Notes under the pieces: generated by a model
Database searches by the model: none
The model's input: the letters and a program-made list of their open reading frames with translations, nothing else
What the model was told of the DNA's origin: nothing
Position numbers and translations under genes: made by a program
DNA from: Candidatus Zixiibacteriota bacterium
GTDB lineage: Bacteria; Zixibacteria; MSB-5A5; JAABVY01; JAHJOQ01
Assembly (NCBI GenBank): GCA_020053015.1
Contig: JAGVNY010000140.1
Location: 1 to 48,281 of the forward strand
DNA: 48,281 nucleotides
Reading direction: 5' to 3'
Part shown: piece after piece, positions 43,137-44,786 of the stretch
Numbering within the stretch: position 1 is the first letter of the stretch
How the letters are laid out: every line of letters starts with the position of its first letter

Positions 43137-43493
43137 GTTGCGTTCCTCCTGCGTCCCTAACACATTGTTTCGGATTCGCGTTAGCCGACCAGCAGTGTTC
43201 TGAAGGTGCGTCAGTAATATGGCTCCGATGTGAAACGAAACGCTGTGGCGGTGGGCATGCCGCGAATTCCGGTCTTTCTTGAGACAACGTACGGCTGCCA
43301 CGGCTTTCACAATGTGTGAAATCAGATGCATACATCGATGTTGAAATGACGAAAGCCCGATCGCCGCCGCAGTAACTCGTTGATTACCACTGTGATGCGT
43401 GAATGCTTTTCTCGCCATTCGGGCATCGGAATTGCTTGATTGAATTGCATTAGGGTTCTTGTTGTACCATGCTTTGGCTAGGAGGTGCAATCT
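43137..43493. other. Intergenic region between divergent Cys-rich and PEP-CTERM genes
   Basis: About 350 bases. It must carry the promoters for both flanking genes, but no convincing -35/-10 pair was found. Minus-strand open frames across it have no ribosome site and look incidental. Confidence 0.4.
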
Positions 43494-44255
43494 GTGAGAA
43501 AAACATTGGTTCTTGCGTGTCTCGCACTCGTCTTTACTGCGCCGGCGTTTGGATTCAGCTGGACATTCCACGATTTTGGCGGGACGGTGTTTGACGACAA
43601 CAACAACACAAGCCCAATTGATTACCCAAATATAGGATATCTCCCCTCTCCCGGCCACGGCGGTGAGGGCGGCGAGGGATTTGATCTTGAGGGACTGTTC
43701 TTCGCAGAGGACGATGCCTATCTGTACATAGGATTGACAAGTTCATTTGGTCTCGGTGCGATGTCCGAAGATTTCGGCGTGTTTTCGTCGGGTGATGTGT
43801 TCTTCGGATTCGACGGAAATAAGTATGACTACGCAATTAACGTCGAGGAAGGCAGTCTGTATGCCGTTGACGAGTGGTCGTACATCCCTGAGCGCCCCGG
43901 ATCATACGGTGGCCGCCCGATGATCAAGAACATGGTCGGCGCATACCAGATCGTGTCTGGCGACATCATCGGAGAAGCGGGCTTGATGCTGACGTTCGAA
44001 AGAGGTCTCGAAACCAACCCGCTCAGGCCGCCGATGGATGCCAGCGGTGACACATGGGTGTGGGAGTTCAGGATCGCGAAAGAGGATCTTGATGTGTCGC
44101 AGTATAGCTCGATCACTATTCACAACACCCTTGAGTGCGGCAACGATCTTATCGAGGAGACATTCCCGCGCGACCCGATTCCCGAGCCGACAACGCTGAT
44201 GCTTCTCGGCTCAGGCCTTCTCGGCATGGGTGTGTTGAGAAAGAGATTCATGTAG
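43494..44255 (+). CDS. PEP-CTERM sorting-domain protein
   Basis: 253 residues. The GTG at 43494 is preceded by GGAGG 8 bases upstream; the GTG at 43485 lies inside that ribosome site and is rejected. A signal peptide (to ~residue 20) is followed by a ~200-residue beta-rich extracellular domain with Gly-rich and Asn-rich stretches. The C-terminus ends IPEPTTLMLLGSGLLGMG and RKRF, the standard PEP-CTERM tripartite signal (PEP, membrane helix, basic tail) recognised by exosortase. No exosortase gene is in the window. The domain between the signals resembles no family I can name. Confidence 0.88.
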   Translation: MRKTLVLACLALVFTAPAFGFSWTFHDFGGTVFDDNNNTSPIDYPNIGYLPSPGHGGEGGEGFDLEGLFFAEDDAYLYIGLTSSFGLGAMSEDFGVFSSGDVFFGFDGNKYDYAINVEEGSLYAVDEWSYIPERPGSYGGRPMIKNMVGAYQIVSGDIIGEAGLMLTFERGLETNPLRPPMDASGDTWVWEFRIAKEDLDVSQYSSITIHNTLECGNDLIEETFPRDPIPEPTTLMLLGSGLLGMGVLRKRFM

Positions 44256-44261
44256 GAGGTT

Positions 44262-44371
44262 GTAGGTCGAAACCCTCGCGGTTTCGACTTGTAGGTCCGA
44301 ACCACTGCGGATCGGACTCCGTAGGTCAGGAGCCCTGCACTTGTCCTGAGACTGCGAATGGCGCTCCTGAC
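44262..44371 (+). repeat. Three tandem GTAGGTC-headed hairpin units
   Basis: Unit 1 (44262-44290): GTCGAAACC/GGTTTCGAC, 5-base loop. Unit 2 (44291-44320): GTCCGAACC/GGATCGGAC with one mismatch. Unit 3 (44321-44371): GTCAGGAGC/GCTCCTGAC with a 29-base loop. Each begins GTAGGTC. Stem sequences differ between units but remain paired, so pairing rather than sequence is conserved. They start 7 bases after the PEP-CTERM stop codon. Confidence 0.75.
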
Positions 44372-44497
44372 GGACGAGACAAGACAGGAGGTTGTCATAC
44401 CGAAAGGTGTGATGCAAACATAAGTCAAACCTTAACGGAGAACAAAGCGCAGAGGACAAAACTGACGTAACCAACAAGACATTTCGAAGGGTAACAC
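44372..44497. other. Short non-coding stretch between hairpin units and terminator
   Basis: No gene, repeat or promoter recognised; it may be the 3' untranslated part of the PEP-CTERM transcript. Confidence 0.4.
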
Positions 44498-44530
44498 AAA
44501 GCCCGCCTGACGAAGGCGGGCTTTGCTTTT
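44498..44530 (+). terminator. Rho-independent terminator downstream of the hairpin units
   Basis: AAAGCCCGCC, loop TGACGAA, GGCGGGCTTT, followed by GCTTTT. It would end a transcript carrying the PEP-CTERM gene and the three hairpin units. Confidence 0.8.
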
Positions 44531-44566
44531 GCGGTTGTCGCTGCTCAGCGTCAAGTCACATCTTCG

Positions 44567-44596
44567 TAGCGGCACGGCACCGCCGTGCCCGTAACG
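44567..44596. repeat. GTAG-headed hairpin repeat
   Basis: GGCACGG (44571-44577), loop CACCG, CCGTGCC (44583-44589), flanked by GTAG and GTAAC. It resembles the widespread GGCACGG-type intergenic hairpins of uncultured bacteria. Confidence 0.6.
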
Positions 44597-44682
44597 ACCC
44601 TCACCCCCGTCCCCTCTCCCGCGGTGGGAGAGGGGTCGAAGACACTGAGTCCCGAAGAGTGGTCGAAGACCGGGGTGAGGGT
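44597..44682. repeat. Nested palindromic repeat (CCCTCACCCC type)
   Basis: Outer 11-base perfect stem ACCCTCACCCC (44597-44607)/GGGGTGAGGGT (44672-44682). Inner 10-base perfect stem CCCCTCTCCC (44611-44620)/GGGAGAGGGG (44626-44635). The direct repeat GGTCGAAGAC occurs twice between the inner stem and the outer right arm. Confidence 0.75.
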
Positions 44683-44723
44683 TCATTGGGTGCCCCGCGT
44701 TTTAGGCGGGTTCTCTGTCTTGT

Positions 44724-44775
44724 CGTAGGGCGGTACCCGAAGTCCCCGCGAGGGGACAGAGTGGTCCCGCCTACG
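44724..44775. repeat. Nested hairpin repeat with CGTAGG/CCTACG ends
   Basis: Inner GTCCCC, loop GCGA, GGGGAC (44742-44757) lies within imperfect outer arms CGTAGGGCGGTACC and GGTCCCGCCTACG. It ends 12 bases before the 44787 gene stop. Confidence 0.65.
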
Positions 44776-44786
44776 TGATCCCACGT

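Follow-up and report, generated by a model that had tools for sequence, protein, structure and literature searches.

Tandem hairpins of three stem classes behind a PEP-CTERM gene in a Zixibacteria genome as very probable RAYT-linked REP elements

Described GTAG-tagged repeats and the array in the window

The closest described systems are the GTAG-tagged REP superfamily (Di Nocera et al. 2013, PMC3733652), the REPtron, in which a RAYT (TnpAREP) gene is accompanied by inverted REPs (Nunvar et al. 2010, PMC2817692; Quentin et al. 2018, PMC6006769), and the REP/BIME sequences of E. coli with their TnpAREP (structure 4ER8). The RAYTs studied so far bind folded single-stranded REPs in a strand-specific manner and cut at CT, or at CT and CA in Marinomonas (PMC8266576), while the contacts of the E. 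coli enzyme with GTAG include Q95, D/E at position 100 and R104 of the WQxRFWDHxIR region (PMC8266576; PMC6006769). A head-to-tail arrangement of REPs has been reported to be rare (PMC3733652).

The 48,281-nt stretch of DNA analyzed here (the window) is contig C29 of a 3.1-Mb assembly that is 88% complete. On its forward strand a gene encoding a PEP-CTERM protein of 256 aa (43485-44255; PF07589, E = 5.6e-6) carries an array of three hairpins at its 3' end, directly downstream of the stop codon that ends at 44255. Unit 1 (class A, 44262-44288, + strand) consists of GTAG plus GTCGAAACC / CTCGC / GGTTTCGAC and has a 9-bp stem and a 5-nt loop. Unit 2 (class B, 44291-44317, + strand), GTAG plus GTCCGAACC / ACTGC / GGATCGGAC, shares this architecture and has a single A-A mismatch at stem pair 7, while unit 3 (class D-long, 44321-44371, + strand) is 51 nt in length and combines a 9-bp outer stem (GTCAGGAGC / GCTCCTGAC) with the long interior CCTGCACTTGTCCTGAGACTGCGAATGGC. 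The three stem classes are oriented head-to-tail in one array and separated by intervals of 2-3 bp that hold no genes. The original prediction of three tandem GTAGGTC-headed hairpins with different stems that still pair was thus borne out at this position, with the one mismatch in unit 2. All three units carry an unpaired GTAG at the 5' foot, their 9-bp stems compare with a REP criterion of about 6-13 bp, and the dinucleotide at the stem foot is CT in units 1 and 2 and CG in unit 3. The array strand folds with a z-score of -3.0 relative to dinucleotide shuffles. By itself the heptamer GTAGGTC is unremarkable in the window (four found, 3.2 expected); the unusual feature is the head plus the palindrome, not the head alone. 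An Rfam scan of the window returned tRNA only and no family for the hairpins.

With the superfamily described by Di Nocera et al. (PMC3733652) these repeats share the unpaired GTAG foot, the 9-bp stem and short loop, an intergenic location biased toward gene 3' ends, many co-existing families, inverted dimers and the linkage to RAYTs. In contrast to that superfamily, the head is longer here (GTAGGTC) and many classes have an invariant GTC/GAC pairing at the foot, and the window array is both head-to-tail and composed of three classes. Neither "Zixi" nor "GTAGGTC" occurs in the main text of that paper. The GTAG foot is also common to the E. coli REPs, but these have a bulged long stem, whereas classes A, B and C here form straight 9-bp stems with a 5-nt loop. 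We therefore consider it very probable that the three units are GTAG-tagged REP elements, that is, short non-autonomous mobile DNA repeats linked to RAYTs, and they were probably copied by RAYTs encoded elsewhere in the genome. As far as our searches show, REPs of the GTAG superfamily are new to this locus and lineage, the kind itself being already known; a literature search for RAYT and Zixibacteria yielded no paper on REPs by title.

A repeat family with compensatory stem changes

Genome counts were obtained from pattern searches and from a 409-kb sample made up mostly of contigs with matches. The 27-nt pattern GTAGGTC-N17-GAC was present in 119 copies in the genome compared to nine for the reversed control pattern. 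Among the 818 outermost hairpins of the 409-kb sample (arms of at least 8 bp), GTAG was the foot tetramer in 83, with the next tetramer reaching 11. Since this pattern specifies nothing beyond the head and the GTC/GAC pairs, the six inner pairs provide an unbiased pairing test. For 100 copies among the matches listed, these six positions were paired in 92% of cells versus 12-42% when slid, 75 copies were fully complementary versus 15 with the arms shuffled, and at least 15 different fully paired stems were encountered; class B, the stem of unit 2, was the second commonest stem class among the own-genome copies listed. The covariation score of 43 distinct rows was 0.516 compared to 0.169 for shuffled and at most 0.16 for slid arms, and at six of the nine stem pairs both arms show changes. 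The compensatory stem changes, whose disappearance with more sequences had been set as the refuting outcome, consequently persist beyond the window. Copies are dispersed both singly and as inverted pairs, and pairs within 120 bp of each other in the sample comprised 19 GTAG-out, 15 head-to-tail and eight GTAG-in arrangements.

Besides these, two classes of 45 nt and 47 nt (copies containing GTAGGTCGGGTTCCGG and GTAGGTCGGCCTCCGG; loci L006, L021, L029, L052, L055, L058 and L061) occur together as inverted heterodimers, always 8 bp apart. Their inner hairpins vary in sequence while pairing is kept, and the stem of the 45-nt class is also found beside RAYTs of other genomes (L093, L102 and L112).

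Nine own-genome copies of the 51-nt D-long class represented by unit 3 were read, with an almost constant interior (CTTGTCCTGAGCCTGCGAAGGG) and outer stems that vary between AGGAGC, ATGCGC, ACGCCC, ACGCGC and GGAAGC. Among 58 genomes the strict D-long pattern occurred in this one only, and none of the RAYT loci examined carried a RAYT with the D-long form; the outer stem of unit 3 does flank RAYTs in related genomes. Each own-genome copy of the unit 3 interior that was read lies within a GTAG or degenerate-GTAG hairpin. The interior (CTTGTCCTGAG) had been likened to common intergenic repeats, a description not borne out in this phylum: the 23-nt canonical form CTTGTCCTGAGCNTGTCGAAGGG is present in just four of 133 genomes of the phylum as well as in four viral contigs. 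No consistent complementary arms were detected around the phylum copies of the 23-nt form, and the literature search on the interior sequence returned only unrelated papers. It appears rather unlikely to us, if worth stating, that a RAYT recognition code can be read from these repeats (a fixed GTC/GAC foot in many classes, a differing upper stem, and CT or CA fixed per class) and that D-long is composite, with the loops of its REPs maintaining a second small repeat.

RAYT genes and their flanking repeats

The search for a RAYT-type transposase gene, proposed along with the original prediction, yielded seven genomic RAYT-like matches, of which five lie above the curated cut-off of the REP-associated tyrosine transposase model (match to NF047646, E = 7e-40). 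One of these genes, on contig C142, is flanked by the class A stem of unit 1, with GTAGGTCGAAACCCTTGTGGTTTCGAC beginning 59 bp before the match and the inverted GTAGGTCGAAACCCTTGCGGTTTCGAC located 103 bp after it. The C142 protein matches the E. coli TnpAREP structure 4ER8 with E = 1e-19 and keeps the HuH motif (DHVH), the YxxxNP motif (YIHYNP) and the WQxRFWDHxIR region (WQYRFWDHIIRD). This gene thus resembles a REPtron (PMC2817692; PMC6006769) in its inverted class A copies, its HuH and Y motifs, its conserved GTAG-contact region and its class-matched REPs. Unlike the REPtron, this genome has at least five types of flanking palindrome, some of them headed by GTGG or without a clear tag. The C152 RAYT has its own AATCCC/AAGCCT class upstream, the C123 RAYT (L044) is accompanied by GTAGCACGGGCG/GTAGCATGGCCG pairs, and the flanks of the C58 RAYT-like locus give no clear palindrome assignment. 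Unrelated palindromes flank other RAYT-like genes, namely GGGTGCCCCGCC at C240 (L041), GTGGCTGGCGCACC at C135 (L042), GTGGCCCGGAC at C257 (L043) and GTAGCACGGGCG at C123 (L044). These differing palindromes suggest that several REP systems coexist in the genome.

The nearest RAYTs are found in Zixibacteria records, which reveals the lineage of the genome. Tagged hairpins flank both sides in 29 of 51 RAYT loci, seven of which are from this genome and 44 from others. Class A stems accompany the closest RAYTs, and the unit 3 stem AGGAGC accompanies others in related genomes. For 39 RAYTs, protein identity and REP stem similarity were correlated with a Mantel r of 0.68 that was reached in none of 2000 permutations, a value uncorrected for shared ancestry. 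RAYTs flanked by class B, the stem of unit 2, were found neither in this genome, at 88% completeness, nor in the sampled relatives; class B may be served by another RAYT, or its RAYT may lie in the missing part of the assembly. In 30 of 36 copies of classes A-C the stem is followed by T, giving a CT foot, and in all 29 copies of classes E/G by A, giving a CA foot. These CT and CA dinucleotides straddling the stem foot are the ones cut by studied TnpAREPs, a suggestive hint at a putative cleavage site.

Where class A REPs adjoin RAYTs in other genomes (L067, L072, L075 and L086), their outer stems are conserved and their loops enlarged by unrelated, partly self-complementary sequence.

A dense multi-class REP/RAYT system is hereby placed in Zixibacteria, and its numerous pairs of RAYT and REP, whose stems diverge by degrees, represent a useful natural data set on repeat recognition by RAYTs. 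As far as the window is concerned, the result is ordinary.

Genomic context, insertion and rival readings

Only seven of 94 units fall inside predicted ORFs compared to 83% of random points, and units are closer to gene 3' ends than to 5' ends by 44 to 19, compared to an even split for random intergenic points. In gaps between tandem genes, 16 units have the same orientation as the genes and 14 the opposite; all three comparisons rely on codon-scored, heuristic gene calls. REPs are rare in the gaps of divergent genes. An earlier ORF-based count, which had placed 39 of the 94 units in ORFs, was dropped, as short spurious ORFs extended over the repeats, and replaced by the count on codon-scored genes. 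The avoidance of genes, the 3'-end bias and the lack of an orientation preference fit a DNA-level mobile repeat tolerated near 3' ends, unlike a sense-strand RNA element, against which the absent orientation bias argues.

The presence of the array was also compared across homologous loci. GTAGGTC hairpins follow the stop codon in none of 11 PEP-CTERM gene homologues of related genomes, two of which (L199 and L202) constitute weak evidence since a different reading frame was probably picked; tagged hairpins of other kinds do occur at that position in L201 and L205. In the closest homologue (G002, 65% identity) a terminator follows about 37 bp after the stop without any REPs, and its upstream flank resembles that of the window (CGAAGGGTARCAMAAAGCCCG). 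The predicted terminator downstream of the units is likewise present in the window as a terminator-like hairpin at 44497-44525 (+ strand), about 125 bp past unit 3, and is probably the native intrinsic terminator of the PEP-CTERM gene; about 240 bp including the array separate it from the stop codon. Because G002 has a similar terminator almost directly after the stop, the array has the appearance of an insertion specific to this lineage; the empty site is judged across 65% protein identity, the nearest genome being of another genus.

The two readings originally offered for the hairpins fared differently in the light of these data. A cis-acting structured RNA, conserved for its fold in the 3' untranslated region of the PEP-CTERM mRNA and acting in processing, stability or regulation, would account for hairpins between stop codon and terminator, their strong RNA fold (z = -3.0) and the preference of REPs here for gene 3' ends. 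However, the array is absent downstream of the homologues, the terminator of G002 stands without hairpins, many other genes have these repeats nearby in both orientations (16 to 14), no Rfam family matches, and copies flank RAYT genes, all of which makes this reading very unlikely. The alternative of a palindrome-dependent mobile repeat stood, with RAYT genes present and the C142 gene flanked by the unit 1 stem. Compatible with mobile REPs, though on balance improbable, is their co-option by the host as mRNA stabilizers or auxiliary terminators that were kept after insertion. For REPs elsewhere such functions have already been suggested (PMC3733652), and the 3'-end bias and the rarity between divergent genes are in line with them; the purging of insertions from promoters and genes would also yield a 3'-end bias, however, and no orientation preference is apparent.

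The array is bracketed by a 10-bp direct repeat (AGGAGGTTGT, 44254-44263 and 44386-44395, both + strand) that resembles a target duplication and could point to the tips of a classical MITE or IS mobilized by a DDE transposase instead of RAYT-linked REPs. Yet the direct repeat has no counterpart at other REP clusters: a flanking repeat of at least 7 bp was seen at one of 53 clusters, the window array, with 0.9 expected after shuffling, and the mean longest direct repeat at REP clusters was 4.23 versus 4.15 in shuffled sequence. Together with the copies flanking RAYTs, this renders a MITE or IS origin extremely unlikely. The direct repeat is not predicted by the RAYT-REP model and may be due to chance or local duplication. 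Tandem palindromes with variable stems further recall arrays of integron attC recombination sites, a reading that we find scarcely credible given the invariant GTAGGTC head, the lack of cassette genes between units only 2-3 bp apart and the dispersal of copies as single units and inverted pairs.

For RAYT-linked REPs, a mechanism can be proposed by analogy to the enzymes of E. coli, Stenotrophomonas and Marinomonas, according to which the RAYTs of this genome would bind, cut and move these repeats. The hairpin would form on single-stranded DNA, the HuH nuclease of the RAYT (TnpAREP) would recognize GTAG together with the class-specific stem and loop, and the cutting and joining of single strands would allow copies to spread. 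The three-class cluster would then be the outcome of several insertions, one after another, into a single permissive gap separating stop codon and terminator, and an effect on the PEP-CTERM mRNA, if any (3' hairpin stabilization or weak termination), would be a by-product.

Further palindromes are located downstream on the + strand, in the convergent gap spanning 44559-44780. A GTAG-headed hairpin of another stem class (GTAGCGGCACGGCACCGCCGTGCC) occupies 44566-44589, and its GTAGCGG head recurs in the 409-kb sample. The terminator-like sequence GGGTGCCCCGCGTTTTAGGCGGG at 44688-44710, with the hairpin GGGTGCCCCGC..GCGGG, is nearly identical to the palindrome flanking the C240 RAYT, while an imperfect palindrome that starts with GTAG and ends with CTAC (44725-44774) resembles a "double foot" REP (PMC6006769). 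The additional palindromes of this gap include a GTAGCGGCACGG hairpin and a nested repeat (CCCTCACCCC..GGGGTGAGGG).
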